Below are positions 12,485 through 34,162 of a stretch of DNA of 41,014 nucleotides, piece after piece (positions within the stretch are counted from its first letter, which is position 1; each line of letters opens with the position of its first letter). The stretch is taken from positions 1 to 41,014 of the IMG/VR virus record IMGVR_UViG_3300003691_000021; one strand, 5' to 3'. The stretch is from a virus. The notes below the pieces were generated by a model. It ran no database searches. It was not told the DNA's origin and was given only the letters and a program-made list of their open reading frames with translations. The translations under genes were made by a program, and so were the position numbers.

Positions 12485-12907
12485 CTATACGGAAGTTCTT
12501 TCTTTTTGAGCTTCTGCTCTTTCAAATTTAGCCTGACGGTACTTTTCTCCCGCGGCTATGGCTGCGTTTGCCGAAGTAACACCTACAAAGAAATCACGTT
12601 CCCTCTGCAGGGATTCATTGATTTCGAGAACAGAACCCTCAAGCCTCAATCCTCTGTGAAAATTATTCACGATATTGGCACCACGCGCTGAGGCAAGTTG
12701 CTTGTCGGCGTCCATGGCCTCTAGTTTTCCGTTCTTCACTTCCTGCTCCGCTTCAACCTCTAGAGACTTTGCATAAGACTCGCGGCTACGGGCACTCCCC
12801 AGGAGACTCTCGCGGCGAGCTTCTCTCTGTGCTCTCTGGGCTTTGTTTGAAGACCATACACTGAGGCCCAACTGCGCCACTCCTAAAGCTATCATCTGCC
12901 AAGCCAT
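12485..12907 (-). CDS. Small internal virion protein (gp14-like)
   Basis: A 140-aa protein with a hydrophobic N-terminal helix (MAWQMIALGVAQLGLSVWSS), then a long basic/Ala-rich amphipathic helix and coiled coil. This layout, and the position just after the nozzle gene and before the larger ejection proteins, matches gp14-type proteins that insert in the outer membrane in T7. It starts at TAATG overlapping the nozzle stop. The assignment rests on layout and order. Confidence 0.65.
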   Translation of the reverse strand: MAWQMIALGVAQLGLSVWSSNKAQRAQREARRESLLGSARSRESYAKSLEVEAEQEVKNGKLEAMDADKQLASARGANIVNNFHRGLRLEGSVLEINESLQRERDFFVGVTSANAAIAAGEKYRQAKFERAEAQKERTSV

Positions 12908-15900
12908 TATGCGCTCACCTCGTAATCAGTTCCGATTAGTGTCATGTCCAAAGGCTCTTCTCGTTTCTGGGTAAACTTGACGCGCCCATCCCGGTCATAC
13001 CCTAAAAATCCCTTTAACTCTTTGGATCCGGTTTCCTGGGGAATAGCCACATCCAGAACATTAGGCAAGAACCTGAACGGGACCTGTCTCCCCTGGACAT
13101 AGAAACCCTGCGTGTTAACGTATTTTATAAATATGGTAACAACACGCTTCTTCTTGCCCATTACTGTTCCAGATTTTAACACATAAGAAACCGGAAGTGT
13201 CTCTACAAGCACATTTACATCGTCTTCCTCTCCCTCAATGTCAGGAAAAGGCAGCCCTAGCTGGTAACTATATTTAGCGGTTTGCGGAAAAGTCAGGTCT
13301 CCATTCCCATCGACCGTGTAGGTCCCCTGTAACTCCCCGTCAATGATAAGCCCAACCGGTTCATGTGCCAATTGGAGCTGGTCGCTGACCCCAGCCACCG
13401 GCATATCAATATCGAATTCACAAATGGCCGCATCGAATTTTAGTTTGTCGTTGAATATTTCGATCCAGTCTGATTCTTCGCCTATCTGACTGTCGTTAGA
13501 GAAATCCAACTGGTAAGCTCTTTCGGTTTGAGTCCCTACCCACATTAAGGTTTTCCCGTTTGAGTTGAAACTCATTCCAAACGGGTTTGTGTCCAGGTGG
13601 CTAACGTCAATACTGTGGGTCCAGATAGCCGTGGAAGTGTCACCGTCTGTAGGCATCGTAAACTGGTAAATCTTGCTGTGCTGGGAGCCTGCGACAAAGA
13701 ACCTTTTGAGGTCGTGGGACCATTTAACATCCTGCGGGCTCGTATCAATCTCAGACAGATCCAGCTCCATGTCCAGGAAGGTATACCCATCCCCAAAGGT
13801 CCATGGGGTATTCAACTCCCACCGCTTGATCTTATCGGCCCCGGTCGCCACAATGATAACTTGCTTCCCGGTGTCTCTATCAATATCGAATCCTGTACCG
13901 CTCGATAACTCAGCAGAGAAATCCAGGACATTTTCTGAATCCTCAACATTTCCATCTTTCAGCGTATTGGGCTCATCCAAATTATATTCCAGAACCTTGT
14001 GGTCATCCAGATCAACTATGAACATCTTGTGGCCATCGGGACTGAGCACAACATCTTTTGGGTTCGCTGTTTGCCCTCCAAGAAAAAAACTGTTCCCCGT
14101 ATAAACAACGCGCTTCAAGCTGTCCTTGAAATTCAGGGCATACTCGTAAACACGGTCTCCCCTGTTATCTGTGATCAGCATTGTCTCGCCGTTAGAACTT
14201 AGTGCCACGCCCTGCGGGTTAGCATTTGAGCCTTGGAACTCGGTGAGGTTAAGGAAATAACCCGGGTCCTCTACGACCCCACCAGGCCATCTCTTCGCAT
14301 GGAAATAGGTTGTCTGGTCAAGAACGGCTACATTTTTAAAATCCCCCTGTGTGGTGCGAAGCGCAGCGGCATTAATCAGCTGTGATTTTAATACCGTGAA
14401 GGCAATCAAGGAACCGTCTTCGTTCACTATCCAAAGATAATTTCCATCGGTTGTGTCCAGTGATTTTTTTAGCGCCATATCCACGGGATTGTTTATCAGG
14501 TGACTCCAGAATATAGACGCGGGGTCAGAATCATAGGCTTTGAAATTATCAATAAAATGGAATTCCCGAACAGCGCCGCCTCCCTTTTGCACATAATAGA
14601 CAACACCGTCCACAGTGAATGGCTGGATACCAGGCTTTGACCCGACATCCGCAGTTTTACGAAAACTTATATTTCCGGGTGTTAGGGATTCAAGCGCCGA
14701 AGCTTCAGAATAGAATTCCGCGTTGTCACAAAGCAACTGAATATGGCGTCCAATGTGGATAGACAGAATTGTAGAAATAACACCACCCCCAAGAGTGGCT
14801 ACAATTCCATAATCATCTGTCACCCCACCTGAGTTGAAGTCTGTGGTATCACCAGCCCTGCTGATATACAGGGTGCTGGGCCGCGCCGCTGTAGCAGCTA
14901 ACATGAGGCGTCCCTCATAAAAAGTTCCACAGCGCGGATACCCATTATTCGTACTAAACTCGTCTTCTTCTATTAACCATTCAGTGGCACCCACCACAAA
15001 GCTTGCGACGGTATTTGGGGAAATCAGGGGGAGAGTTATGTATTCTGCGGTGCCTGCCGTGGTGCTCGTTAAGGTTTTTATCTCCATGTAACAAGAAAAA
15101 TTATTACCGGTTCCATCAGTCGAACCCCGGACTCTTATTTTCTTGCCGACATCTGCGGCGGCAACAAAATTAGCACTCGCAGCTGTGATGGTTCTTACCG
15201 ATCCGACAACCGGTACCCCACTGACATTGTATCCTACCGTCAAATTACCAGTGGTTGTTTTCCCAAACGCATAGGTCGGGATGTTGGTCATTTCATATTC
15301 ACTTAATGTCCAGATTTCACCGCCTGAGTAAGTCCGGATTATTTGTTGAGTCGGGACATCCTTGTGGAATATGAGAATGGTATCGAGTTCCTGTGTCCAC
15401 GATATTTCTGAGATTTGTTGGTTGGTGTAAATAAGATCATGGTTGGTGTCTACTAGCTGGTTGGCCCCAAATCCAACGTCTTCTTTCCGGTAGACATACC
15501 AACGACCCAGAGTAAAAACCAATAAATAATTCTGATCCTGTGAAAATGAAAAATCAATTTCTCTCAGAGCATCTTGAGTTCCTATTGTATAATTTACATC
15601 GAGGCCAGATCCGGCCCCAGTTACCTTTGTCGTAGGAGAAGGGCCTGGGTCTAGCTCCCAGTAATCACCCACCCTTAAAATGCGGATTCCCGAGACCACA
15701 CCTCCAGTCGCAATCGAGGTGACAACTCCTTGCGCTGGCTGGGTTGAGGTTCCATTTGATTTGTCTAGCGTAAAACTATCACCTACCGCATAACCAGATG
15801 AACTGTTTGGGGTGTCTATAGAAAGAGAATCAATACCAATCGGCCTGAGTCCTCGAGCCTCTGTCTGGAAATTAATAGTTGCTCCGCTGCCTGTTCCCCC

Positions 15901-16299
15901 CGTGAAAGCTACCCCTTGAGCGGGGAGAGTGGCATAAGTCCCGGGGCTTGATATGCTGAATAAATTAATCGCCCCTAACCCTTCGGTATTAAGGACCAGT
16001 ATAGTGAACGCGGTTTCCCCGCTTACCTGCCCGGGTATTGTCAAAACATCATTAATGCTGTACCCAACCCCCCTGCTCACAAAATTCATGTTTCTTAATG
16101 CGTAGGTTCCCTCAAAGGGAGGGATGCGAGTCAACGTCTGGAGACCGGCAGCCCGGGTAGCGCCTCCCTGTGCTAGCGGAAGAGCATTCCTCATTTTGCC
16201 AACACCATTGACATAGACTTCCAGCTCAGGCCTGTGGGTTAAGGTCTCATCAATCTCACCACTATTAAAACTGTTTTTGGAAACTCTAAAAAGGCCCAC
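12907..16299 (-). CDS. Tail nozzle protein (gp12-like) with inserted beta-propeller
   Basis: An 1130-aa protein. The N-terminus has the nozzle signature SFNSGEIDETLTHRPELEVY followed by MRNALPLAQGGATRAAG. Residues about 70-245 hold tandem beta modules of the type GVGYSINDVLTI ... GGTGSGATINF and GYAVGDSFTL ... GAGSGLDVNY. The central region is typical of the nozzle platform. Residues about 680-940 form a run of NHL/YVTN-like blades (NPQGVALSSNGETMLITD, NPKDVVLSPDGHKMFIVD, SPQDVKWSHDLKRFFVAG, NPFGMSFNSNGKTLMWVG), that is, a beta-propeller insertion. The C-terminal part returns to nozzle-like beta structure. T7 gp12 is about 800 aa, so roughly 300 extra residues are explained by the insertions. 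The start is GTG. Confidence 0.8.
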   Translation of the reverse strand: MGLFRVSKNSFNSGEIDETLTHRPELEVYVNGVGKMRNALPLAQGGATRAAGLQTLTRIPPFEGTYALRNMNFVSRGVGYSINDVLTIPGQVSGETAFTILVLNTEGLGAINLFSISSPGTYATLPAQGVAFTGGTGSGATINFQTEARGLRPIGIDSLSIDTPNSSSGYAVGDSFTLDKSNGTSTQPAQGVVTSIATGGVVSGIRILRVGDYWELDPGPSPTTKVTGAGSGLDVNYTIGTQDALREIDFSFSQDQNYLLVFTLGRWYVYRKEDVGFGANQLVDTNHDLIYTNQQISEISWTQELDTILIFHKDVPTQQIIRTYSGGEIWTLSEYEMTNIPTYAFGKTTTGNLTVGYNVSGVPVVGSVRTITAASANFVAAADVGKKIRVRGSTDGTGNNFSCYMEIKTLTSTTAGTAEYITLPLISPNTVASFVVGATEWLIEEDEFSTNNGYPRCGTFYEGRLMLAATAARPSTLYISRAGDTTDFNSGGVTDDYGIVATLGGGVISTILSIHIGRHIQLLCDNAEFYSEASALESLTPGNISFRKTADVGSKPGIQPFTVDGVVYYVQKGGGAVREFHFIDNFKAYDSDPASIFWSHLINNPVDMALKKSLDTTDGNYLWIVNEDGSLIAFTVLKSQLINAAALRTTQGDFKNVAVLDQTTYFHAKRWPGGVVEDPGYFLNLTEFQGSNANPQGVALSSNGETMLITDNRGDRVYEYALNFKDSLKRVVYTGNSFFLGGQTANPKDVVLSPDGHKMFIVDLDDHKVLEYNLDEPNTLKDGNVEDSENVLDFSAELSSGTGFDIDRDTGKQVIIVATGADKIKRWELNTPWTFGDGYTFLDMELDLSEIDTSPQDVKWSHDLKRFFVAGSQHSKIYQFTMPTDGDTSTAIWTHSIDVSHLDTNPFGMSFNSNGKTLMWVGTQTERAYQLDFSNDSQIGEESDWIEIFNDKLKFDAAICEFDIDMPVAGVSDQLQLAHEPVGLIIDGELQGTYTVDGNGDLTFPQTAKYSYQLGLPFPDIEGEEDDVNVLVETLPVSYVLKSGTVMGKKKRVVTIFIKYVNTQGFYVQGRQVPFRFLPNVLDVAIPQETGSKELKGFLGYDRDGRVKFTQKREEPLDMTLIGTDYEVSA

Positions 16300-16910
16300 T
16301 AATAACCCCCGTGTCTGACATCAATCAACGGGAAGTTTTGGATGCTTTGAGCTGGGTGCCCTTGGTCATCAATCCGGGAGGCAACTCGGGCATAGCCGGT
16401 TTTGCCATCCTTCCCCCATGCGTCTATAGTTGTGGCTGTCACTATTTCCTGCTTCTCCACAACCGGGAATGCCAACACCGCCATCATGGCGCGGATAAGA
16501 AGTTCTACGGCATGCACGGGCCATATTTCCACATTGGTAGGATACTGATAATCAATATAGATATTTTCCGTTGAGGAAAGGAGCTTCGTTTCGAATATGT
16601 TGAAATCGGTAAACTGCCCTTGAGTTCCCTGGCTGGACGGAGTGTTCCACACGGCTCGAGGCATACCATTCAACATGTCCGGAGGAAGGTCGTAACTGTA
16701 TTTATACTGTGAGGGAGGGGTTGTAGTGCTTTTAGGCAAAGACTCCGACTTCTTAGTATTGAATCTCCATGCGTGGAAAGTCTCTACAGTCAATTTAACT
16801 TGCGGGAAAAGCTCTTCACAGGTAGGCCCATTCCCCTCATTGAACGAGGCTATAGACTCGTCACCAAGACGAACCAGGGATTGAGAGCATATCGAAACAG
16901 GGGATGACAC
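16299..16910 (-). CDS. Tail tubular / head-tail adaptor protein (gp11-like)
   Basis: A 203-aa protein that would form the ring between portal and nozzle. The N-terminus SICSQSLVRLGDESIASF, then C-E-E-L-F-P and FHAWRFNTKK, matches the gp11/TtpA pattern (ALxRLGAxxIxSF ... YPxxRxxLLxxxxWxFA). The tail reads FPLIDVRHGGY, also typical. It starts at GTG with TATAGGAG upstream and is joined to the nozzle gene by stop-start overlap at 16299, as expected for co-expressed tail parts. Confidence 0.8.
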   Translation of the reverse strand: MSSPVSICSQSLVRLGDESIASFNEGNGPTCEELFPQVKLTVETFHAWRFNTKKSESLPKSTTTPPSQYKYSYDLPPDMLNGMPRAVWNTPSSQGTQGQFTDFNIFETKLLSSTENIYIDYQYPTNVEIWPVHAVELLIRAMMAVLAFPVVEKQEIVTATTIDAWGKDGKTGYARVASRIDDQGHPAQSIQNFPLIDVRHGGY

Positions 16911-16925
16911 AGGGCGGCTCCTATA

Positions 16926-17432
16926 TTAAAGGGTTCTGACTCCAGTCCCGGCGCGGCCTAGTTTTGCCTTAACATCCCCAGGTGTGGCAATATCACCAAA
17001 GCGAGTATATAAATTTCTGCTGCCACTCGCGCTCTCATTTAAAATGCGCGTTCTTTCTTTTCGGTTGGTAGTGTCTAGCTTGCGCTGGGCCTCAATAAGG
17101 TCCGTTGCAAACTGAGAGGCTATCGAACTAGGACGGTTGTTTTCAAGGATACTAGCAGCGCGCTGACCAGGTGTTTCCAGTCCAAAGCCTTGCCTCTGCG
17201 GTCCACTTTTGGAGACACTGGCTAAAAAAGCATCATATTCTCTTTTTAGGTTGGCGTCCCTTTCCGCTGGAGAAAGAGAAGCACCAGGCGGACGATTAGC
17301 GGCTCCAGTAGAGTAAAGAGTTCTACTAGGGGAAGCCAGCGCAGAAGGGGTGAAGGTTTTTTTAGCAAGTTCTTTTGTCTTCTTCTCATTCTGCTGCTTG
17401 GCGATCATAAGGTTGCCAGCGCCAGCACCCAT
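16926..17432 (-). CDS. Hypothetical virion-region protein
   Basis: A 168-aa basic protein, Ser/Ala/Arg-rich, with a disordered N-terminal half and a helical segment around residues 105-130 (ATDLIEAQRKLDTTNRKER). It begins MGAGAGNLMIAKQQNEKK, which resembles the start of some small internal virion proteins, but no family is recognised. It is translationally coupled to the last fibre-family member by TAATG and precedes the adaptor. Confidence 0.6.
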   Translation of the reverse strand: MGAGAGNLMIAKQQNEKKTKELAKKTFTPSALASPSRTLYSTGAANRPPGASLSPAERDANLKREYDAFLASVSKSGPQRQGFGLETPGQRAASILENNRPSSIASQFATDLIEAQRKLDTTNRKERTRILNESASGSRNLYTRFGDIATPGDVKAKLGRAGTGVRTL

Positions 17433-17743
17433 TATGCAGCCTTCTTCTTAGTTTTGCCCTTCGCGTTCTTTCGGATATTCTTGAACGGATCGGCAAACTT
17501 TAAGACTTCTTTGCGCATTACCACGGTAGGCATATTGCGCTCAACCACAATTTCAGCGATACAGTCTTTGCAGATTATCTTGATAAAAGAATTCTGACGC
17601 AAAAGAATCTTGTTCTTGTCAAAATACCCGTCCTCCATAATCTCAGATAGCGGATCCTCAATGTTGGTATAGGCAAATAGCCTCGGAGCGTCAACAGGCC
17701 CCTGTACCGCCATTGAAGTAAAACCCATATCTCTAAATGACAT
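17432..17743 (-). CDS. Capsid-fibre family member H8 (short, divergent)
   Basis: A 103-aa protein. Residues 17-45 keep the family core, DAPRLFAYTNIEDPLSEIME then DGYF, matching the APQ-aromatic-x-Y ... dGYF pattern of the other seven members, although the FxPxGxNSRRG start is degraded to FTSMAVQGPV. After a short beta segment (FIKIICKDCIAEIVVE) it ends in a strongly basic tail, GKTKKKAA. It would be a capsid-surface or cement protein if the family reading is right. It is the most diverged copy. Confidence 0.6.
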   Translation of the reverse strand: MSFRDMGFTSMAVQGPVDAPRLFAYTNIEDPLSEIMEDGYFDKNKILLRQNSFIKIICKDCIAEIVVERNMPTVVMRKEVLKFADPFKNIRKNAKGKTKKKAA

Positions 17744-17756
17744 AAATACCCTTTCT

Positions 17757-18356
17757 TTAGGTTGTGGCTAAAAGCTGTTTTAAGTTGAGAGTAATGTCAC
17801 CAGTTCCGGCAGGGACCTCTTCAATACCAGGCTTGGTGCCAGTAGCAGCCCCAAATGAAACTTTAAGGCCAGTACCAGAACCCGTTATCTTTGTGGTCGT
17901 TAGGTTTAAATATGTTGCTTCATATACATAGCTAGGTGTTGCAAACTCACCAGCGTCATAAATTGATATTCCCGTTGGGACACCACCCGTTTGGGCTGTT
18001 ATCTTGACGATTGTGGTGGTAATAACACCCACAGAATTGGGCCACGATACAGAAGCATAATCATTAGTCGCATAACCAGTTCCAGCGGCACTTCCAATGC
18101 TAGGATTTATAGCCTTGTTTTTCTCAAAACCATCTCGGTTAAAAATCCAATACCCATACGAGTTTGTACCCGCTATGGTGGTGGATGCCTGGAGCCAGTC
18201 CCCAGTCTTAACATCCCCTTTCAACGCATTAAAGTAACCATCTGCCCTCATGTCTGCGGTGGTGTCTTCGGTTTTATACGCAAACACCTGAGGGGCTTTC
18301 CCTTGCCTTGAATTAGCCCCTATAGGGGTAATATTTACGGGTATGAATTCAGCCAT
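17757..18356 (-). CDS. Capsid-fibre family member H7 (N-module plus beta module)
   Basis: A 199-aa protein. Residues 1-65 are the shared N-module (NITPIGANSRQGKAPQVFAY ... ADGYFNALKGDVKTGDWLQ). Residues 90-185 form one beta module with GYATNDYASV, IYDAGEFATPS and GSGTGLKVSF. That pattern also occurs in tandem in the tail nozzle (GYSINDVLTI ... GSGATINF), so a capsid-type and a tail protein share a module. It is likely a head decoration protein. AGGGAAGGA precedes the ATG. Confidence 0.7.
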   Translation of the reverse strand: MAEFIPVNITPIGANSRQGKAPQVFAYKTEDTTADMRADGYFNALKGDVKTGDWLQASTTIAGTNSYGYWIFNRDGFEKNKAINPSIGSAAGTGYATNDYASVSWPNSVGVITTTIVKITAQTGGVPTGISIYDAGEFATPSYVYEATYLNLTTTKITGSGTGLKVSFGAATGTKPGIEEVPAGTGDITLNLKQLLATT

Positions 18357-18370
18357 TTTTTATTCCTTCC

Positions 18371-18679
18371 CTATGAAGCTTTGATTGTTTTACCACTAAT
18401 GGAAACATTGGCAGTGCTTGGTGAGCGCAGCGAATTTGCTATTTGGAGTATAGAAAATGAAGCCGCTGAATCCCAAACCTTTACGATATCCCAACTATTC
18501 ACCACATTCCGCATGGTATTAAAATAGCCATTATTTGAGGTTATAATAGTCGAAAAGGTATCACTGGTGCTGCCCAAGTTCCAGTGGGCGGGTGCATTCT
18601 TCCCATCCTCCAGTTTTGTTTCTGAGCCGCCCCGGGCATTCCCACCGACAGGCTGGAAATATCTTTGATTGAAAGCCAT
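18371..18679 (-). CDS. Capsid-fibre family member H6 (short)
   Basis: A 102-aa protein consisting of the shared N-module only: MAFNQRYFQPVGGNARGG, then W and NNGYFNTMRNVVNSWDIVKV, followed by a beta segment ending VSISGKTIKAS. The insertion SETKLEDGKNAPAHWNLG replaces the usual APQ segment, as in H1. Lying a short way behind the capsid gene, it is a good candidate for an abundant head decoration protein. AGGAGAAG precedes the ATG. Confidence 0.7.
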   Translation of the reverse strand: MAFNQRYFQPVGGNARGGSETKLEDGKNAPAHWNLGSTSDTFSTIITSNNGYFNTMRNVVNSWDIVKVWDSAASFSILQIANSLRSPSTANVSISGKTIKAS

Positions 18680-18689
18680 AATTCTTCTC

Positions 18690-19004
18690 CTAGACGGTTA
18701 AAGCCATTTTTTTAGTCGTAACTGAGACATTCGTAACCAATGGAGTCCTGTGAACTACATTGAACGTGATAATCGCATATTCCCTTTGGGCTGATACGCT
18801 GTTATTAGCGTGAGCAGAGACATGAACACAGTCCCCTATGAAGACATCATCTCTCAGGTAATTAAAATAACCAGAAGTCATAACCTGGGCAAGAGTGTCA
18901 TTGGTTATATACGAATACTCAGCGAACCCTTTTTTGACAGTCGTATAATCGGAAGAATGGTGCCCCCCAATCGGACTGAACGAATCTGGTGTAAATGCAG
19001 CCAT
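18690..19004 (-). CDS. Capsid-fibre family member H5 (short, next to capsid gene)
   Basis: A 104-aa protein: FTPDSFSPIGGHHSSDYTT, then FAEYSYITNDTLAQVMTSGY and F-N-Y-L, followed by beta strands ending VSVTTKKMALTV, the same type of ending as H6. It starts 12 bp after the capsid gene with AAGGGG upstream. It should therefore be made in amounts near those of the capsid protein, as expected of a decoration protein. Confidence 0.7.
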   Translation of the reverse strand: MAAFTPDSFSPIGGHHSSDYTTVKKGFAEYSYITNDTLAQVMTSGYFNYLRDDVFIGDCVHVSAHANNSVSAQREYAIITFNVVHRTPLVTNVSVTTKKMALTV

Positions 19005-19016
19005 GCTTTCCCCTTT

Positions 19017-19862
19017 CTAGGATTCGTTTACAAGGACAGAGACTACGCCCTCAGGATCAATAACCGTGGATCCAGCAGAGAACAGTCCATTAGATAACCA
19101 GGAAGTCTTTTCAGCGATCCAGTCTACGGTAGCGCGGAAATCAATACCTACAGCCAGAGCCGTAGAGCCGCGAGACCCACCATGGAAACCAAAACAAGAC
19201 CGGACATTACCACTGGATTTAATCAAACCACCCTCAGCCCGGGTCTCAATCATGTGGAAAGTGAAGCCATAATACTCATTGAAAGTGCCATTCTGCAGGA
19301 CTCGCATTGCATTGTAATCAGCACTGGTGGCTTTTGGATCAGCCATCATCTGCTTTTTAGCCTTGGGAGACCAGACCAGGTGACGCTCAGACTCGGGAAC
19401 TCCCTTGTCATCAAAGTATTCACCAACATCTGTTAACTTTGCCAGCGTCATCACAGATGACGGGGACGTTCCAGCAATGCCACCCGCTGTTACAGCGGCG
19501 GTGAGAGCATCCAGAATCAACTGGTCCTGGCGTCGACCGATAGCCATGGCAATCGTAGTTGCCAGTTCAGCGCGCTCAGAGTAGTTGACCTTCTGCTGGT
19601 CAAAAATATCAGTGTATTCCGGAGCGTTCCAGTCTTCCAACGTTGCAATAACGTGGCTTTGCTGGACGTTCATGGGAATAACGTCAGTTTGGGGCAATCG
19701 GGGAGTCGCTAGACCCTTGCCGAATAAAGGAAATTGAACCGTAGCACCTACAACACCGGTCTTTACCCGGACAGCACCACGCAAAATAGAAGATTTTTGA
19801 TAAGCTTGCTTAACGATCGCGTCAAATTCAGCTACCTTATTGACGGTTAGGGACCTAGCCAT
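19017..19862 (-). CDS. Major capsid protein
   Basis: A 281-aa protein forming the icosahedral head. It fits an HK97-fold capsid of compact size: a helical N-terminus (VNKVAEFDAIVKQAYQKSS), an E-loop-like region rich in Gly and Pro, a spine-helix segment (ERAELATTIAMAIGRRQDQL), and P-domain features such as VWSPKAKKQMMADPKA and VLQNGTFNEYYGFTFHM. It ends in a beta part, GIDFRATVDWIAEKTSW. No frame-shifted extension is seen. GAGGT lies nine bases before the ATG. A strong promoter and long leader lie immediately upstream, unlike other late genes. Confidence 0.85.
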   Translation of the reverse strand: MARSLTVNKVAEFDAIVKQAYQKSSILRGAVRVKTGVVGATVQFPLFGKGLATPRLPQTDVIPMNVQQSHVIATLEDWNAPEYTDIFDQQKVNYSERAELATTIAMAIGRRQDQLILDALTAAVTAGGIAGTSPSSVMTLAKLTDVGEYFDDKGVPESERHLVWSPKAKKQMMADPKATSADYNAMRVLQNGTFNEYYGFTFHMIETRAEGGLIKSSGNVRSCFGFHGGSRGSTALAVGIDFRATVDWIAEKTSWLSNGLFSAGSTVIDPEGVVSVLVNES

Positions 19863-20028
19863 TTGGCATACCTCAGACGAAGATTAGAGAATTAGATTCT
19901 TAAACTAAGTCGATTGCCAATTGGTATAAGGCGGGTCCGGTAAGGGATTGCCACCGACCTTTCGGGTCGATACAACGTGCTTCTAAAACGGATTAGTTGC
20001 GAGTGTATAGAAACACCCGGCTAATCTA
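19863..20028 (-). other. Structured 5' leader of capsid mRNA
   Basis: About 165 nt between the predicted start and the capsid ATG. Inverted repeats include GATTAG/CTAATC enclosing GTGT/ACAC (about 20025-19990), CGACC-CGAAA-GGTCG (about 19973-19959), AGAAT-CTA-ATTCT and palindromic CCAATTGG. None is followed by a U-run on this strand. A long structured leader on an abundant capsid mRNA could stabilise it; no known riboswitch was recognised. Confidence 0.5.
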
Positions 20029-20034
20029 TGTGAA

Positions 20035-20063
20035 AGTATACATAGATACAGATGTACTGTCAA
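20035..20063 (-). promoter_or_regulatory. Strong sigma-70 promoter for the capsid gene
   Basis: On the minus strand, TTGACA (20063-20058), exactly 17 nt, then TATACT (20040-20035): a perfect -35 and a one-mismatch -10. An 8-bp inverted repeat, ATCTATGT/ACATAGAT, overlaps the -10 and could bind a regulator. It lies immediately past the stop of the upstream fibre gene, so capsid expression is uncoupled from the four fibre genes. Confidence 0.8.
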
Positions 20064-20067
20064 GCTA

Positions 20068-21852
20068 TTACGTCCTTACATTAAACTGGACAGCTTCCAA
20101 CAGAAAGGCGTTTGCTGAACCAGTTTTCACCTCGACACGCACCATGTCCTCCGGCTCTAAATAAATCAGAGAATCTCTCCGGTAGGGAGTGGGGAAGTTA
20201 GCATTTATTACCAAGTTCCAAGATTCCTCAACTCTGATATGGTTCCCATACTCGTCCACTATTGCCAGCCTAAAATCATAACTTATATCAGATTCCCCTT
20301 GCCAGGTCATATTCAAGGTATAGGCAAACGTAGAAGAAGTATCACCTACATAAATGTAGTCAATCTCGTTCATGCCTATTATAGGTTCCATCCCCTGAGG
20401 CAGACCTCCACGAGCAGGTAGAACTCCAGTCGAATCAGAATCATAAATGATCCCTTGATACTCCCCGCTCTCGTTATTAGCAGGAAGGAGATATGGGCTA
20501 TGTGTATTTGCTTTTGCCCTAGGACTTGGCACCCCGGAGTTGTTGTACCCAGAAATTTTAGCATACGGATCTGTAGTAAACCCCTCCGGAGTAATGACTC
20601 CATAATATATATCATGGTTATATGAATATTGTTGATCCACAATAACTTTAGTGGTACTTATCACTTTTAGTATTGCCACATCAGCAATACCACCAGTTGA
20701 GAAGTCTACTCCAAAACCCCAAGGATTGACCTTGTCACCTACGGTTAACCCATGTGCCTCATAGGTTTCTACAACCAACTTCCCATAATAGTATCCTTCT
20801 TCTTTACCCCCTGTAGAAACAGTTTTTATAAGTAGGGGTTCATAGAGAAATGGGGTGGAAATAAAAAACCCGCTCCTGATGGTTTGGCAGTTCTCAAAAG
20901 AAACAGAAGGGACATCGATCCCATCGGTTTGGGGGATGATAAGCCCATTCGCAGAAACAGGCGCTATTTTAAAGGTGCAGTTCTTAAAAAAAGCGCTCCC
21001 ACGCGGCTCCATATCCAAATAAAGACACGGATACTGGTTAGACTGGGAAGCCCATGAACAGTTATTGACTCTCACGCTAGAGCAAGACGATATATAAACA
21101 GCAGAAGATATATTTGCAGTGGGAGGATTTCCAGAGGCATCAGTGTTGAAATCTTCGATTACAAGCTGATCTATTTCTGACACACTTAAGGTCCCATTAA
21201 ATCCCTTAATATTGCAATTCCTGAGTGTCAGTCTTTCTGTGCGGTGGTATATGTCAGATCCAATTTTAACAGCAGTTCCAGATGCCCCAGAATTGTTAAA
21301 ATTAAACCCATCCAGAACAAATGAGAGGGGATTACTTTCAAACGCACCGTCTTCCACAGAAATAAAAGAATCCGCTGACCCGGTGTAATTCCAGTTTAGG
21401 CCACCTTTCGACCCTATATAAGTTAATGACCCTCCTAAATTATAATTCTTGGGAAGCAATATATTCGCGTCACTTGTGACATCACTACCTATTGCCACCA
21501 GGTAATTGACACCATTTTCAAGGATTATAGTATTTGAGTCATAGTAATTGAAGCTATCCAAATGACTTATGATAATAAAAGAAGACGGAAGTGAGCTTAT
21601 TCTTCTCTCGGCAATGACAACCTGTTTGCGGATTGAGTCGGAAGAAACAACCCTGAGGATATAAGTCCCCCCTTTCACTACAGCCCTAATAAAATCATTA
21701 GCACTTATCAGGGGAGCCTCTGGGCCAAAATAAGACGGGTCTGTAACCTTGTCGATGTTGTCAGACTTATTGTGGTAATTGAACTCCTGCGGAGCGGTTC
21801 CCCTTCTCGAGTTTGCGCCCGCGCATGTAAATTGCGCAGCTATAAAAGCCAT
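20068..21852 (-). CDS. Capsid-fibre family member H4 (long, beta-helix)
   Basis: A 594-aa protein. Residues 1-80 are the shared N-module (FTCAGANSRRGTAPQEFNYH ... SYFGPEAPLISANDFI). Residues about 95-330 read as a right-handed beta-helix: IILENGVNYLVAIGSDVTS, GGSLTYIG, then repeated short strands with Asn/Cys turns (LRNCNIKGF, VNNCSW, FKNCTF, FENCQT). Residues about 365-430 form a YEAHGLTVGDKVNPWGF module, then GVPSPRAKAN, and a C-terminal jelly-roll-like domain with LEPEDMVRVEVKTGSA. It is inferred to be a trimeric fibre anchored on the head. No enzymatic motif was recognised. Confidence 0.75.
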   Translation of the reverse strand: MAFIAAQFTCAGANSRRGTAPQEFNYHNKSDNIDKVTDPSYFGPEAPLISANDFIRAVVKGGTYILRVVSSDSIRKQVVIAERRISSLPSSFIIISHLDSFNYYDSNTIILENGVNYLVAIGSDVTSDANILLPKNYNLGGSLTYIGSKGGLNWNYTGSADSFISVEDGAFESNPLSFVLDGFNFNNSGASGTAVKIGSDIYHRTERLTLRNCNIKGFNGTLSVSEIDQLVIEDFNTDASGNPPTANISSAVYISSCSSVRVNNCSWASQSNQYPCLYLDMEPRGSAFFKNCTFKIAPVSANGLIIPQTDGIDVPSVSFENCQTIRSGFFISTPFLYEPLLIKTVSTGGKEEGYYYGKLVVETYEAHGLTVGDKVNPWGFGVDFSTGGIADVAILKVISTTKVIVDQQYSYNHDIYYGVITPEGFTTDPYAKISGYNNSGVPSPRAKANTHSPYLLPANNESGEYQGIIYDSDSTGVLPARGGLPQGMEPIIGMNEIDYIYVGDTSSTFAYTLNMTWQGESDISYDFRLAIVDEYGNHIRVEESWNLVINANFPTPYRRDSLIYLEPEDMVRVEVKTGSANAFLLEAVQFNVRT

Positions 21853-21854
21853 TC

Positions 21855-23645
21855 CTACACCTCACATATAAAGTAAAGGTTTTCTATCTTAATGTTTCCA
21901 CCGGAGACCTCGGCTGCTATTTCAGGATAAATATGCTCCCCACCATCTACCTGAATTATGGTGTCAAAACTATAAAATAATACCACATCGTTTTCGTCAC
22001 TGTCAGCCCGTGAAATTTCCCATTCCTCGCTTACCGTTCCAGAATCGGTTGCCATTCTTATCTTATAAGTCTTCGCTGAAGTATCGGGAAGGATACCTAA
22101 CCCTATGCTACATCTGACCTGGGCCCGACTACGCCCTAAATACTGCAATTTCAAATGGTTGTAGTTGGTAGCCTTAAAATCCTTCATAAACCCGGATTCT
22201 GGGACTAGAATTTTACCAGGAGTATTCAATATTATGGCGAAACTTGTTCCAGTAAATCCCTGCCCAAAACTTCCATCTGTTATGGTCACGCATCCTTTTT
22301 GTCTGGGGCTGTCTATACCTATGCAGTTGTAGGCATTCATAACATTATAGCCGATAGGGTCCAGAGACCGGTTGGCATTCGTTCCGTTTTGCGCGAATGT
22401 AACCCCGCCACCGTAATTGTCATTTGTATACTGGGCATCACATATAAAAGTTGTCGTGCTTTCGATGGTTAGAGCTGTCACGGTCACGTCATCATAGTCT
22501 GCCGTTCCCCAAATTGATAGTTCGTCATTGGCTACTATGGTGATAGCTCTTCGAAGAGTTATCCTTGTGCTTGAACCAATTTGGGTTATTGATTTTATAG
22601 GGATACTCCGGGTGTTATATGAGTTTTTGCCGACATTCCCATCCTCATCCAGCAGACGACACCCCGTAAAAACATAATCTCTATTCAGGGAGTTTGAATA
22701 AGGGTCAATAGGAACGTATTGGATAGCCCCATAACCCGTAGTCGGGTATACAAGCTCACAGTCTGTAAAATAAATCTTTTCAATCTCATCTGGATTGATA
22801 TGTAAAATTGACAACTCATCATTTAGGTTTGGATACCTAAAATTGCAATTGGCAAATGTCCCGTCATTTATGTTATCAACCCGAAATGCAGGATAGGAGG
22901 GAACAATTGGGTCCTCTGTAAGAGTGTAGAAAGACATGTTTGTTGCAATAACCTTATCAACATTGAAGACATCTCCGAATCTACCAAAATCTTGGAAATC
23001 ACAGTTAATTACATACAGACTCCCCAGAGAGACAGGGGTGAAGTCAAGCGCAACGCTGCCGGGATTAGCTACGGTATCTCCCTTAACTGAAAAATTCTCA
23101 AGAGTAAAGGAACCAGTCGCCCCAACAGAAGCGGACATGCTTAAAAACTGGTCTGCCGTGGTTTCCCATTGTAAAACTCCCTGGCCGCCCATGTACCTTA
23201 AAGAGCCACCTCCGGAATAATCGGACTCACAAACAAATTTTTTATCTGTTGAAACGGAGGCGTCTATAAATACTCTATAGTTCACTCCATTCTTAAGAAG
23301 ATAATCTCCATTCCCATCCTCTTCAAAGTCGTCTAAGGAATAAATATTCTCAAAAGACGCGTCTCCCAGGGTTTTGCTGGATGTTATGATGTCAGGAGAA
23401 ATCACAACGGTCCCAAAGGGGGCTGGTCCCGAGGACAGGACTGTAAATACGGCTATTTCTGCAAAGCTATCAACAATAGTTATTGTGTCATTAGCTACCA
23501 GCTGGTAGACCACTTCTTTAAAATAATCATCCTCTAGCATCTGGTGAATGCCATCATCGGAGGTTTGATATGTGTATGCCTGCGGAGCGTCCCCTCTTCT
23601 TGAGTTCGCTCCAGCCGTACTAAAATGCTCTATTTTAAAAGCCAC
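21855..23645 (-). CDS. Capsid-fibre family member H3 (long, beta-helix)
   Basis: A 596-aa protein with start GTG (GGAGAAATATA upstream). The N-module is FSTAGANSRRGDAPQAYTYQ ... DDYFKEVVYQLVANDTI. The beta-helix begins with YLLKNGVNYRVFIDASVSTD and GGSLRYMGGQG and continues with FANCNFR, FTDCEL and FTGCRL turns. Then come NDELSIWGTADYDDVTV, NCIGIDSPRQKG and a C-terminal jelly-roll-like domain with VDGGEHIYPEIAAEVSGG. The layout follows H2 closely through the whole length, so the two arose by whole-gene duplication. Likely role: head fibre. Confidence 0.75.
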   Translation of the reverse strand: MAFKIEHFSTAGANSRRGDAPQAYTYQTSDDGIHQMLEDDYFKEVVYQLVANDTITIVDSFAEIAVFTVLSSGPAPFGTVVISPDIITSSKTLGDASFENIYSLDDFEEDGNGDYLLKNGVNYRVFIDASVSTDKKFVCESDYSGGGSLRYMGGQGVLQWETTADQFLSMSASVGATGSFTLENFSVKGDTVANPGSVALDFTPVSLGSLYVINCDFQDFGRFGDVFNVDKVIATNMSFYTLTEDPIVPSYPAFRVDNINDGTFANCNFRYPNLNDELSILHINPDEIEKIYFTDCELVYPTTGYGAIQYVPIDPYSNSLNRDYVFTGCRLLDEDGNVGKNSYNTRSIPIKSITQIGSSTRITLRRAITIVANDELSIWGTADYDDVTVTALTIESTTTFICDAQYTNDNYGGGVTFAQNGTNANRSLDPIGYNVMNAYNCIGIDSPRQKGCVTITDGSFGQGFTGTSFAIILNTPGKILVPESGFMKDFKATNYNHLKLQYLGRSRAQVRCSIGLGILPDTSAKTYKIRMATDSGTVSEEWEISRADSDENDVVLFYSFDTIIQVDGGEHIYPEIAAEVSGGNIKIENLYFICEV

Positions 23646-23668
23646 TATATTTCTCCAGTATCTTATTA

Positions 23669-25393
23669 TTAACTTGTGTGGACCATGGCATATAAGTTTT
23701 CAACAACCAGGTCTATATCATCGGAACCTGCAGTCTTTCGAATTTGGGGGTAGATTAAATCACCGGGATCTAAGTGCAGTGGGAAGACTGCAGTGTATGG
23801 CATGAGATTCCCCCTATCCTCGAAAAGGAATTCGACATCCTGTAATTCCATGCTGAATTCTTCTTTTGTGCTACTACTCCCGGTTGATGTCAACATAAAA
23901 CTAATTTGAAGAAAACAATCAATCACCGATTCCCCTGTGTATTTTATAGACACCTCATTGTGTGATGAGATAGCGAAATCTTTAGGGAAGACAGTTCTGG
24001 ATGGCTGGCTTTTCCCGCTATTAACCGGAATAGGTTGTTTGGTAGTGTTGTTTGTATACGTTTTTTCTGCTGTATTCCCCGAAAAGTATAGGAACCCCCG
24101 CGCCTTAGGACTTGGGATGCCTATGCAATTTAAAGCTTTAATTTTCGTGGAAGAATGAGTCGTAAAACTTTCAATCGTATTGAAAGCCCCGCCAGTATTT
24201 ATACCAACGAAATCCTTAACCACTGTGAAGTGTGTAGAGTCAATAACGCTATTAACAGCCTCTAATGTACTGTTATAGTTTAAGGTCCCCCACAACTGGA
24301 ACTCATCAGCAGTGACCAACCCATGCGCTGCGTAGGTTTCTATATTTATAACAGTCGCGCTTGTCTGGGTAATAGCTTTTATTATTTTTTGATCTACATT
24401 AAACGGGTTAGCGACCTGCGCACCATTAGCAGTTAATAAACTACAGTTTGAGAATAAAATATAATCTGAGGGAGCATTCCCGGGGGTTATTCTCAATCCG
24501 GGTGAAGTTGTAGCCGGTACCACAAGCTGGCAATTTGAAATATATGCCTTATTGAGGCTGTTTGTTTTAATTTCTAACGCGCCATGCTCACTTCCAGGAG
24601 ATTCTATTTTTGAATTCTCCATAATAATATCTGTGCCAGCTACCTTAAAAAAATCATCGACAGAATGATGTCCAGTATCGGTTGTTGCAACATTAACATT
24701 ATTTATACGGAGCACATGTATTCCACTATTTAAAATAGCCGCAGTAACAAATCCAAATAAACCAACATTGCTAATAACGAGCTTATCAATAAATGGGTCT
24801 CCCATTCTTAGGCCAAGTGACTCTTCAGTGCTTGTGGTCGTGATATTGAAATTCTTTAAAGAGAACACCGGACCTTTGGTCCCGAGATAATCCCCATAGA
24901 TGAAGTATTCTGCGCTCGTGTTCCATTCAAGCAACCCTTCTGGACCCATAAACGCTAATTCGCCACCATTCGAATAATCGTCATCAAAAATAAAGTATTT
25001 ATCAGTCGTGACTGTCCCTTCAATATAAACCTGATAGATAATCCCATTCTCAAGGATAAAATTCCCTTCAAAATCTTTTTTAAAGTCATCTACACTGTAA
25101 ATATCCACAAAGGTAGGCTTCTGTATAGGATGCACATAGGGGATGTTGCTCTTAACCACAACGTTCTTTGACACAGGGTCTGAAGACACTACTTGATATA
25201 TGATCATGCCATCACTCGTGACGCAGTCGATTGTGTCATCGGGGACAAGCTGGAAACTAACCTCCGAAAAATAATTGTCCCCTGACATATCGGATATTGA
25301 GTCACCCATATTCTTGTATGTATATTTTTGCGGGGCTTCTCCACGTCTAGTCTGAGAACCCACCGGAGCAAACTGATTTATTAAAAATGACAT
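23669..25393 (-). CDS. Capsid-fibre family member H2 (long, beta-helix)
   Basis: A 574-aa protein. The N-module is FAPVGSQTRRGEAPQKYTYK ... DNYFSEVSFQLVPDDTI. The beta-helix section has FILENGIIYQVYIEGTVTTD, GGELAFMGPEG, then ISNVGLFGF, ISNCQLV and FSNCSLL turns. A YAAHGLVTADEFQLWGTLNY module follows, then NCIGIPSPKARG and a C-terminal beta-sandwich with LDPGDLIYPQIRKTAGSD and the shared ENLYAM end. It would stand on the capsid surface as a fibre, with the C-terminal domain distal; this is inferred from layout. Confidence 0.75.
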   Translation of the reverse strand: MSFLINQFAPVGSQTRRGEAPQKYTYKNMGDSISDMSGDNYFSEVSFQLVPDDTIDCVTSDGMIIYQVVSSDPVSKNVVVKSNIPYVHPIQKPTFVDIYSVDDFKKDFEGNFILENGIIYQVYIEGTVTTDKYFIFDDDYSNGGELAFMGPEGLLEWNTSAEYFIYGDYLGTKGPVFSLKNFNITTTSTEESLGLRMGDPFIDKLVISNVGLFGFVTAAILNSGIHVLRINNVNVATTDTGHHSVDDFFKVAGTDIIMENSKIESPGSEHGALEIKTNSLNKAYISNCQLVVPATTSPGLRITPGNAPSDYILFSNCSLLTANGAQVANPFNVDQKIIKAITQTSATVINIETYAAHGLVTADEFQLWGTLNYNSTLEAVNSVIDSTHFTVVKDFVGINTGGAFNTIESFTTHSSTKIKALNCIGIPSPKARGFLYFSGNTAEKTYTNNTTKQPIPVNSGKSQPSRTVFPKDFAISSHNEVSIKYTGESVIDCFLQISFMLTSTGSSSTKEEFSMELQDVEFLFEDRGNLMPYTAVFPLHLDPGDLIYPQIRKTAGSDDIDLVVENLYAMVHTS

Positions 25394-25395
25394 GA

Positions 25396-27612
25396 TTAAC
25401 TCCCGTTGAAACTGAATGAACGCACGTTTAAATTACTCGTACTTGTTAGATTTTTAAGTCTCATCTTGATCAAATCGCCCTGAGATAATTCAGTGGCCCC
25501 TGAAATTGGGACAGAAAGAGGGACGTTCCCAAATGTCCCCATGGCTTGCCCTACATCAAGTAATTGCCGAAAGGCAGTGTCAGACGCTCTGTAAATCCAT
25601 GGGACAAACGCAAACTCAGTAGCAGTGTTTCCCGATTCATTTTCCGCTGCAATTGAAGAACTTAACTGGAATGTTTTAGTGACCGCGCCATCATATCTGA
25701 ATGTCCCAGCTTCAACATCGACCAAAGTGAACTTTTCAGTACCATCTAAAATAGGAATGTTGTCTACAAATTTAAAGTCCGTATACTGACTCTGGTTCGT
25801 AATGGTAATGACTTCGCCTGTTTGTATGGAGTCAATCGTGTAACTAAAAAGCAACTGACTGTCTTTTTCTCCAGCTACTCCTGAAATCATCATTCTGGGA
25901 TCGGTGCCTGTTATTGAACCATTATCTACTGTCATCACCCTCGGATTTCCAGACACCCAACCTCCAGTATCAGTCCCCAAAACAGAACTATCTAACTTTA
26001 TGGTCACCTCTGTTTTTGCCGTATTGATAGACGCAATAAAATGACTTCCCTTATATTCGGAGATAGCGTCAGGCATAAGAAAAATGAATTGATTTTTTTT
26101 AAGAGTGCTGGATGCAAGAAGAGTGACCGTTGAAAACCCATCACCAAGAGATGTTATTAGGCTAAAATGACCATCTTCGCCAAACTCAACTCCCTTTGCG
26201 GGTCGACTTATTTTTAGGCCAGAAAATTTGGTATCAAATGCTTTCGCACCACCATTATAATTAATGGTATTTTCAATCAAAACTGTGTCCCCGTTTGTAT
26301 ACTTCTCACTCTGAGACACTAGCTCAACGCTCACAGCATCGGCTTGAAATTTACCGCTTGAATCCCCTGAATATTCACCCTCTATAATCAGATAGGTAGG
26401 GCCAACTGTTTTAATATTGTAGGTTTCGTTATAGGCCGTATCTACCATGTCATATAGAGTTATTTCCTGATGGGGCCAAAAGTTGGAAGTATCTATACTT
26501 ATTGTTATCTCCAGCTCACCATCCACCGTTCCTGCCACAACCCCAGTCACATTCCCACTACTAGAATGGTCTGCCCCTATTCCCTCAATTGGCTCTGTTC
26601 TACCTTCCTGAAAAAAGGAAGAGTCCCCACTTAAGAGAACTTCTGTAGAATTAATTTGAATGGTCGCATCATCAGCCAGATAAGGGTCAATGTAAACTGC
26701 ACTCTCCTGATCTGGAACTTCGAAAGACATGTCCTGCATTGAAATAAAAGAAGAGGCCCTATCACCATCAAAAGAAAGTGCTATGTTTCCGGGGTCTGAC
26801 TGATTCCCATTAAGTTTGTAGGGTCCGAGTCTCACATCTAGACAATTCCTGATAATTAAACCACCGCAATTAACAGCCCCGGAATGGTCAATGAAAACAC
26901 TTCTATAATTTTGAATGGTGCCCATGCTTTTAAAGTTGATAACACTTCCTTCAAAAAACCTTATCAGGCCAGTGTCGGGGTTGCCATTATCCAAATCCAA
27001 GAAAATATTTTCCCCTTTTATTCTGGCCGGATAGTCTCCATTGGCAGCATCCTCTGTCAGAAAATTCATCATCCTTACCACAGTTGCACTGGACTTAAGG
27101 AAAACATTTAATTCAGTGGGCGGCTTAAAAGCTACCCGATTAAAGATAAAAAATGTTGACTCAAATTCAAGAACGGCACCAACACCCGGTGTAGTAAAAA
27201 GATTCTTTGTCAGCAATGTATAGTCCATCATCAAATATTTTTGGAATGGATTAATCTGGATTGAATCATTAATCACAGTCCCCTCAAAATCCGCCTCTTT
27301 AAAAATAGGGGTAACATTTTTAGCGCTAGGCAATGCTGGCTGGATATATTCTGTCGCAAGAGTGACTTGCTGGAGCGTCCGGTCAACCGACTCAATAGTA
27401 AAAATGACATTATTATCTTTAAGAGAACAATAAATAAACTGCCCAGCGGCCAATAGCTTATTCATGGTATCGAAGTAACCAGCAGTGGAAACTGTCTCCA
27501 CATTATCTACTGTGCTTAGATAGCCCCACCCCATAGGAGCATTCCTGGTCGTTTCGACTCCAGACCTGGAATTACCCCCAATAGGAGTGAATCTTAAAGA
27601 ATCAAACGGCAT
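25396..27612 (-). CDS. Capsid-fibre family member H1 (longest)
   Basis: A 738-aa protein encoded directly after the scaffold. The N-module is FTPIGGNSRSGVETTRNAPM-G-W ... AGYFDTMNKLLAAGQFIY; like H6 it has the longer inter-motif segment. The central part is beta-rich with helix-like repeats (RNCLDVRLGPYKLNG). At least three internal modules of about 60 residues follow, of the ITxxxxxxxGxxVxI ... Y-x-V ... type (for example ITLYDMVDTAYNETYNIKTV and FLMPDAISEYKGSHFIASIN). The C-terminal end LSQGDLIKMRLKNL matches the ends of H2-H4. GAGGAAT precedes the ATG. Likely head fibre. Confidence 0.7.
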   Translation of the reverse strand: MPFDSLRFTPIGGNSRSGVETTRNAPMGWGYLSTVDNVETVSTAGYFDTMNKLLAAGQFIYCSLKDNNVIFTIESVDRTLQQVTLATEYIQPALPSAKNVTPIFKEADFEGTVINDSIQINPFQKYLMMDYTLLTKNLFTTPGVGAVLEFESTFFIFNRVAFKPPTELNVFLKSSATVVRMMNFLTEDAANGDYPARIKGENIFLDLDNGNPDTGLIRFFEGSVINFKSMGTIQNYRSVFIDHSGAVNCGGLIIRNCLDVRLGPYKLNGNQSDPGNIALSFDGDRASSFISMQDMSFEVPDQESAVYIDPYLADDATIQINSTEVLLSGDSSFFQEGRTEPIEGIGADHSSSGNVTGVVAGTVDGELEITISIDTSNFWPHQEITLYDMVDTAYNETYNIKTVGPTYLIIEGEYSGDSSGKFQADAVSVELVSQSEKYTNGDTVLIENTINYNGGAKAFDTKFSGLKISRPAKGVEFGEDGHFSLITSLGDGFSTVTLLASSTLKKNQFIFLMPDAISEYKGSHFIASINTAKTEVTIKLDSSVLGTDTGGWVSGNPRVMTVDNGSITGTDPRMMISGVAGEKDSQLLFSYTIDSIQTGEVITITNQSQYTDFKFVDNIPILDGTEKFTLVDVEAGTFRYDGAVTKTFQLSSSIAAENESGNTATEFAFVPWIYRASDTAFRQLLDVGQAMGTFGNVPLSVPISGATELSQGDLIKMRLKNLTSTSNLNVRSFSFNGS

Positions 27613-27613
27613 T

Positions 27614-28618
27614 CTATTCCTCTAACTCGGTTCCAAATGTTTCGGCAAAAGACTTCTCAATCAATTCTCGATGAGCTTTCCCTTCCGGAGTCTCCTGATC
27701 CATGAGCATAACCCCCGGCTTACCGGGAACCTCTACACCCATAAGAGCCTGACATTCTGCAGGAGTTTTAGCTCCCGTAGTGACTTCAGAACTCAATTTC
27801 ACAGGAATGGGCTTCTCTCCACTGTTCTGACGGAGTTTATTTGTAAGCTGAACTCCTAGCGCGGTACTCCCTAAATCCGCGAGCTTGTTACGTTCAGCTT
27901 CGTTTAAAATCCCGTTTCTCATTAGAGAGTTGATCCAGCTGCTGTTTACTTTCAGAATATGCTCACCATTTTCTCCGAGCAATTCCATTTCTTTCGTAGT
28001 ATCAGGTTGCTCGGGGAGAAACGCCTCAAGACCTTCCATAACATCCTGCAGGCCATCGGTAAACTGAGCCTTGCTCATATTCCCGGCCTTGGCAAACTTA
28101 GCCAGAGCCTGAAATACAGGATCGGCTGGAGTCATGTCCCCAAACTTGGTGAACTTGTCACCTTCTGCCTGGTCTCCAGACGCTTTGGCCCGGATAGGAG
28201 GTTTAAAGTCTTTCAGGTAATCGTTGTAATCCTCAGGCGTCTCACCACGCTCATTGAGGATATTGTTCATTTTCTTTCGAAGATCATTGTACGAGTTGGC
28301 CATCTCATTTTCTTTGACCTTGCCGGCTTCATAGTCCCAAAAGGCTTCAGGAACATTATCAGGGCGACCACCTGTGACACCGGGGCCTTGATTCCCCCCA
28401 GGCTCTGGGCTTCCACTCAGGTTTGCATTCTGCGCATCCCCTAATGGCTGTGGATCGTCAGCATGTCCGGGCGTCCTTTCGTCGGCATGGACATTGCTCA
28501 TATCAATATGAGAAGAGGAACTCTCTTCAGAATCAGCCGCTACAGCACCTTCCATTAATCCTGTACCACCTTCTGCACCATCTGCGGCAAAGAATATCTT
28601 TAAAAATTCCTTTAACAT
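27614..28618 (-). CDS. Capsid scaffolding protein
   Basis: A 334-aa acidic, helical protein upstream of the head genes, as T7 gp9-type scaffolds are. The N-terminal 90 residues are Gly/Asp/Ser-rich and disordered. The motif VPEAFWDYEAGKVKENEMAN followed by SYNDLRKKM is a pattern I associate with phage scaffolds (pekFWD..G.vd...la.sYkeLe). The C-terminal third carries helices and a basic patch suitable for contacting capsid subunits. AGGAG lies before the ATG. Unusually, four large genes separate it from the capsid gene it serves. Confidence 0.8.
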   Translation of the reverse strand: MLKEFLKIFFAADGAEGGTGLMEGAVAADSEESSSSHIDMSNVHADERTPGHADDPQPLGDAQNANLSGSPEPGGNQGPGVTGGRPDNVPEAFWDYEAGKVKENEMANSYNDLRKKMNNILNERGETPEDYNDYLKDFKPPIRAKASGDQAEGDKFTKFGDMTPADPVFQALAKFAKAGNMSKAQFTDGLQDVMEGLEAFLPEQPDTTKEMELLGENGEHILKVNSSWINSLMRNGILNEAERNKLADLGSTALGVQLTNKLRQNSGEKPIPVKLSSEVTTGAKTPAECQALMGVEVPGKPGVMLMDQETPEGKAHRELIEKSFAETFGTELEE

Positions 28619-33976: not shown

Positions 33977-34005
33977 TTGACATAAATATCTCTGTTCCGT
34001 AGAAT
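33977..34005 (+). promoter_or_regulatory. Strong sigma-70 promoter for the rightward two-gene unit
   Basis: TTGACA (33977-33982), exactly 17 nt, TAGAAT (34000-34005). The predicted start is near 34012. An in-frame ATG at 34004 falls inside the -10 box and so cannot start translation from this promoter. Confidence 0.8.
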
Positions 34006-34011
34006 GGTTGC

Positions 34012-34145
34012 TGCTATGAGATACCGCAAGCTAACAATAAATTCAATTGACGAGGGCTGCGCTCAGTTACGACTGAGTGTTAACCCTTATCTAAAAGGTC
34101 AGTCCCTAGGCGATAGCGGTATCTCAAGGGGCTGGCCTTTTTTTA
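34012..34145 (+). ncRNA. Rightward leader RNA ending in intrinsic terminator
   Basis: From the promoter, the RNA has UGAGAUACCGC (34017-34027) near its 5' end, a CUCAGU-UACG-ACUGAG hairpin (34061-34076) and a terminator with GGTCAGTCCC / GGGGCTGGCC (34097-34106, 34128-34137; two G-U pairs), extended by AAAA/TTTT and followed by seven T. The 21-nt loop holds GCGGUAUCUCA (34116-34126), exactly complementary to the 5' element. GAGAUACCGC occurs again at 34150-34159, overlapping the ribosome-binding site of the next gene. The same layout and length are seen in the leftward leader at 3742-3611. Function is inferred. Confidence 0.65.
34097..34144 (+). terminator. Rho-independent terminator inside the rightward leader
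   Basis: A 10-bp stem (8 Watson-Crick, 2 G-U), lengthened by flanking A4/T4, then T7. It stands between promoter and gene, so the downstream pair is expressed only on readthrough, or the leader is itself the main product. Confidence 0.8.
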
Positions 34146-34162
34146 TTGGGAGATACCGCACC

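Follow-up and report, generated by a model that had tools for sequence, protein, structure and literature searches.

An uncultured short-tailed virus of bacteria carries, around its capsid gene, eight genes (H1 to H8) whose products all open with a homologous module of about 85 residues. We consider it likely that this is a capsid-docking module which has expanded into a display set, made up of abundant short decorators or cement proteins (H5-H8) and scarcer long adhesin fibres (H1-H4). The stretch analysed, referred to here as the window, is the record IMGVR_UViG_3300003691_000021 at its full length of 41,014 bases.

The structural genes of the window follow a T7-like order on the minus strand, running from terminase, portal and scaffold through H1-H4, capsid and H5-H8 to a 168-aa ORF, the tail tubular proteins and the tail genes. 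The H genes are intact and form one run at 17432-27612 (minus strand), each with an RBS-like sequence upstream and separated by gaps of 1 to 23 bases, the exception being a 205-bp gap ahead of the capsid gene. At the upstream border of the cluster lies the gene for the scaffolding protein of T7-type capsid assembly (27614-28618, minus; Pfam PF05396, E 5.5e-7). It is followed by the four long members, all on the minus strand: H1 (25396-27612, 738 aa) joins its N-module (27343-27612) to a long fibre part, H2 (23669-25393, 574 aa; module 25142-25393) and H4 (20068-21852, 594 aa; module 21598-21852) continue into a shaft and a C-terminal domain, and H3 (21855-23645, 596 aa; module 23385-23645) has a predicted beta-helix shaft with a predicted TNF/C1q-like jelly-roll tip. 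H4 and H5 flank the gene for the HK97-type major capsid protein (19017-19862, minus, 281 aa; PF19821, E 5e-63). Downstream on the same strand, H5 (18690-19004, 104 aa) and H6 (18371-18679, 102 aa) consist of the N-module only, H7 (17757-18356, 199 aa) adds a C-terminal extension to its module (18132-18356), and H8 (17432-17743, 103 aa) ends in a basic tail. The downstream border comprises the 168-aa ORF (16926-17432), which has neither the module nor a family match, and tail tubular protein A, the head-tail adaptor (16299-16910, minus; phrog_394, E 5e-20). No counterpart of the 168-aa ORF was found at the same position in four related capsid loci (L012, L013, L016 and L018). Misassembly of the window is unlikely, as L018 keeps the order scaffold, long fibre, capsid, short copies and tail adaptor. 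Pfam searches of H1-H8 gave nothing of note, and no enzyme domain in H1-H4.

The homology of the eight modules can be established in several ways. Paralogue comparison by BLASTP connects all eight via their first 60-110 residues or so, and a profile of the window's eight modules plus those of two isolates matches eight proteins, and no more, across the full record. As a safeguard against circularity, a window-free profile was built exclusively from other phages, using 53 modules. Within the window it retrieves exactly H1-H8 (E 4.8e-13 to 1.2e-19), with the next ORF at E 1.1, and its best E among 1,600 shuffled N-termini is 0.066; together these results rule out chance or low-complexity similarity. 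The original prediction of eight paralogues with a common N-module is thus borne out. The motif it had ascribed to them, F-x-P-x-G-x-N-S-R-R-G, holds in part: it is complete in some members, but NSRRG is missing from H5 and H8, which have HHSS and VQGP there, and the accompanying APQ is exact in H2, H3, H4 and H7 only. What all eight have in common is a core formed by a Tyr-Phe pair, present in 8 of 8 modules, and a GD-x-I-like strand. Structure predictions of H5 (pLDDT 84) and H3, the two members modelled, agree in the succession of strands and helices along the module and do not show the different folds that had been named as a counter-sign; the two models shared alignment rows and are not independent. 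A recent duplication at the DNA level was considered and rejected, since hardly any similarity is left in the DNA, BLASTN giving two weak matches (H2-H3, 67% over 141 bp; H3-H4, 71% over 66 bp).

What does the module bind to? It corresponds to phrog_18004, a family of unknown function matched by 41 of the 58 modules collected. Searching solved structures with a profile of all 58 leads to residues 1-87 of orf16 in the particle structure 9EG4 (9eg4_H, E 3.3e-9; E 0.006 with an earlier profile of ten rows), and the capsid protein of the same entry (9eg4_A) is homologous to that of the window (E 2.3e-32). The entry contains seven capsid chains and seven orf16 chains. For 9EG4 these chain counts suggest one decoration protein per capsid subunit, as would be expected for the asymmetric unit of a T=7 shell. 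This joint homology to orf16 and to the capsid chains beside it is what argues most strongly for docking on the head, and it supports the earlier proposal that the N-module is a common head-docking unit. Among the 50 matches listed by a Foldseek search of the PDB with the H5 model, 9EG4 does not appear, and the search gave nothing below E 0.1, so the link to orf16 rests on sequence profiles. Against BFVD the same model finds uncharacterised viral proteins (E 2e-5 to 2e-4), one of them a 164-aa entry equal in length to the module protein of Dunaliella virus SI2. The N-terminus of orf16 itself yielded no relative in annotated phages or GTDB genomes. While module and capsid protein are homologous in both systems, a single orf16 species of 269 aa is modelled in 9EG4, as opposed to eight module proteins in the window, four of them long fibres.

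The number of copies is likewise unusual. We compared 134 capsid loci, taken from the window, from two isolates and from IMG/VR. Because many of the contigs are fragments or near-duplicates, the counts are lower bounds. In 127 of the 134, the capsid gene is followed within 200 bp by the start of a module, which is the place taken by H5 in the window. Five loci have no copy, 115 have one, 10 have two and 2 have three; the highest counts are five, in L018, and eight, in the window, which is the extreme. The isolates Methylophilales phage MEP301 (gp30) and SI2 (DVVG_00003) carry the same phrog_18004 module at the same position behind the capsid gene, each as one copy in the stretches read, in contrast to the eight of the window. 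An expansion past the usual single copy, as had been suspected, is therefore supported. Querying IMG/VR with the H1, H3 and H4 proteins returned no close relatives, and an H1-type module query no further contig; the NSR-G-APQ motif, run there as a DNA pattern, hit seven stretches, two of which encode a module. In the open-access papers searched we found no description of eight paralogues on one docking module.

A tree of the modules gives indications on how the set arose. H5, H6 and H7 pair with the first, second and third short copies of L018, with support of 95/92 for H5 and H6 and a weaker 93/83 for H7. H8 has its orthologue in the last copy of every near relative and falls inside a clade of such last copies (100/98), and H1 groups with the long proteins encoded upstream in L018, L016 and L015 (100/98). 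The remaining three, H2-H4, make up a clade of their own, to which no other locus contributes (97/91). The five copies matched in L018 stand there in the same gene order, and their modules share 38-50% identity with their orthologues as against 14-34% among the five paralogues. Tree and identities together indicate that the lineages of H1 and H5-H8 probably predate the split of the window phage and L018, with gene order kept since. H2-H4 would then be a later expansion in the lineage of the window, judging by the relatives sampled.

The outward parts behave differently from the module. H2-H4 align over their full length, shafts and ends included, at 25-28% identity. H1 represents a separate fibre family, which aligns with the L018 fibre (28% over 476 aa) and with L017. 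The similar C-terminal ends expected for all four long members are accordingly found in H2-H4, whereas the end of H1 is only weakly like theirs over the last 36 residues or so (hhalign probability 8%, E 0.004). Among the relatives, L013 joins the module to collagen repeats (PF01391, E 1.3e-7), L015, L018, L027 and L062 carry it on long fibres, and a knob common to the module proteins of L013 and L016 occurs without the module in L012. With collagen, beta-helix and other long C-terminal parts on one module, the idea of interchangeable outward parts finds support, and these comparisons establish that outward parts have been exchanged on it. The G+C content of H1-H4 is 0.40-0.43, compared with 0.48-0.50 in the surrounding portal, scaffold, capsid and tail genes; the fibre of L018 is likewise lower, at 0.399 against 0.489 for its capsid gene. 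Several relatives have inserts between scaffold and capsid (L018:6158-7879, L013:8946-9722, L016:1431-3634, L012:1968-3897), which include a lipoprotein-like gene, LamG/concanavalin-like proteins (a weak Pfam match in L018) and others. With such varied genes the interval looks like a general insertion site.

For the fold of the long members we rely on the model of H3, whose overall confidence is modest (pLDDT 68, pTM 0.47); its N-module mostly reaches 74-94, and residues 407-486 are of very low confidence. The shaft is strand-rich and matches beta-helices of phage spikes such as Klebsiella phage Kp7 gp52 and the K2-2 spike (E 3e-4 to 1e-3), with low TM-scores of 0.15-0.25, so that its likeness to depolymerase spikes is one of fold only. 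The C-terminal jelly roll weakly resembles TNF, C1q, bacterial TNF-like lectins and the CBD of a phage tail fibre (E 0.02-0.06). Beta-helix shafts with jelly-roll ends had been proposed for the long proteins in general; the prediction agrees for H3, the member it covers. Collagen and TNF/C1q-like domains usually form trimers, and by this analogy the long H fibres are likely to be trimers.

Taken together, these observations can be combined into a proposal for how the head works. The N-module would plug each H protein onto the shell, where H5-H8 would form an abundant layer of decoration or cement. H1-H4 would be less numerous and project from the head as beta-helix fibres, probably in trimers; their TNF/C1q-like tips, which probably bind sugars, could keep the particle close to polysaccharide of the host until the tail fibres take hold. 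A possible basis for the different amounts lies ahead of the capsid gene, where the 205-bp gap that separates it from H4 contains a promoter-like site at 20035-20063 on the minus strand (TTGACA-17-TATACT, 11 of 12 positions), a consensus match only, which is the best sigma-70-like match in 15.5 kb. Sites with 10-12 matches occur in the same gap of L019, L026 and L029, and most other relatives have nothing there above shuffles. This extra apparent promoter would co-transcribe the capsid gene with H5-H8, with H1-H4 being transcribed upstream of it, and we therefore propose that the short proteins are made in large amounts, as the capsid protein is, and the long ones in small amounts. More tentatively, the window may represent a small podovirus that displays eight proteins on its capsid via a single module, has gained its fibres by domain swapping, and combines at least five specialised, conserved positions or roles with a fast-expanding, lectin-tipped set.

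By analogy, two classes of protein on one head would have precedents. PhicrAss001 has the head fibres gp21 and gp29, whose N-termini (residues 1-38 and 1-58) dock in hexon-centre pockets, each in its own hexon environment (PMC10172136). It has two head-fibre types, compared with the eight module proteins of the window. The T=9 head of Sf14 combines a lattice cement with a second, adhesin-like decoration, gp33 and gp20, which have two folds, beta-tulip and Hoc-like (PMC11821841). This resembles the division into cement and adhesives proposed here; the Sf14 pair is not presented as a set of paralogues sharing a docking module. The head fibres of phi29, which are alpha-helical coiled coils, and T4 Hoc are head proteins which are not essential and are believed to promote contact with the host cell (PMC7602432), Hoc being Ig-like (PMC11821841). 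Unlike H1-H8, neither is described as a paralogue set in those papers.

How the eight proteins are distributed can also be viewed differently. They might compete for equivalent capsid sites, in which case expression levels would determine the mix and each particle would bear a random assortment of cements and fibres. The module core common to all eight fits such mixed occupancy, as does the later, window-only expansion of H2-H4, and if the chains of 9EG4 are a guide, one module per capsid subunit would offer about 415 near-equivalent sites. We nevertheless regard this as unlikely. The positional orthologues of H1 and H5-H8 in L018, closer to their counterparts than the paralogues are to each other, indicate that the copies have been kept distinct, and PhicrAss001 sorts its two fibre types to different hexon pockets (PMC10172136). 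Long separation with conserved positions argues that dedicated roles fit these five better than random mixing.

Another reading, which we think quite improbable, assigns the decoration of the whole shell to just the short copies that follow the capsid gene and places one or more of the others at the portal vertex or neck, or on the tail as spikes with a borrowed domain. It draws on H8, which is the last gene of the cluster, near the tail genes, and belongs with its orthologues to a separate clade. The C-terminal tails of H8 and its orthologues in L012-L019 are net positive (+1 to +11 over 35 residues) and strongly basic in H8, L016 and L012. A cement role does not account for such a tail, and, as a point against the proposal made above, H8 may not be a surface protein. 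Genomic position is also not fixed, with the module fibre of L027 sitting between the terminase and portal genes. Against this stands the window's own tail-fibre candidate at 5054-6235 (phrog tail-fibre matches), which lacks the module, the search of the record having found H1-H8 only; moreover, the common core predicts a common binding partner. We see hardly any room for the view that the H proteins are not virion components at all and that the module is an assembly chaperone or other intracellular domain. The missing functional assignment of phrog_18004 would allow it, but the module-bearing orf16 is a modelled chain beside the capsid protein in the 9EG4 particle, and extensions of the collagen and beta-helix kind are characteristic of exposed fibres.

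Should the proposed capsid-displayed set of decorators and fibres hold, it would suggest a function for a widespread, unassigned family. A head-decoration domain could then serve as a general fibre plug, as tail-fibre adaptors do for tails, and the way in which a near-symmetric shell sorts paralogous binders would become testable. The N-module also suggests itself as a natural docking tag for protein display on phage heads, and the concept is relevant to the way in which small podoviruses in the environment get to their hosts.

Further features of the window lie outside the cluster. Tail tubular protein B (12907-16299) has 1,130 aa compared with 660-800 in several relatives, that of L018 also being long at 1,041 aa, and the repeats in its C-terminal half (SNGETMLITDNRGDRVYEY..., SPDGHKMFIVDLDDHKVLEY...) resemble a beta-propeller. 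Amid minus-strand genes, two plus-strand genes at 34004-36179 look like an accessory cassette: the first (432 aa) matches phrog_6980 and phrog_13313, both of unknown function, and the second (294 aa) Peptidase_M28 (E 1.5e-5). A phage integrase gene at 225-1283 (PF00589, E 1.6e-10) suggests that the phage may be temperate.
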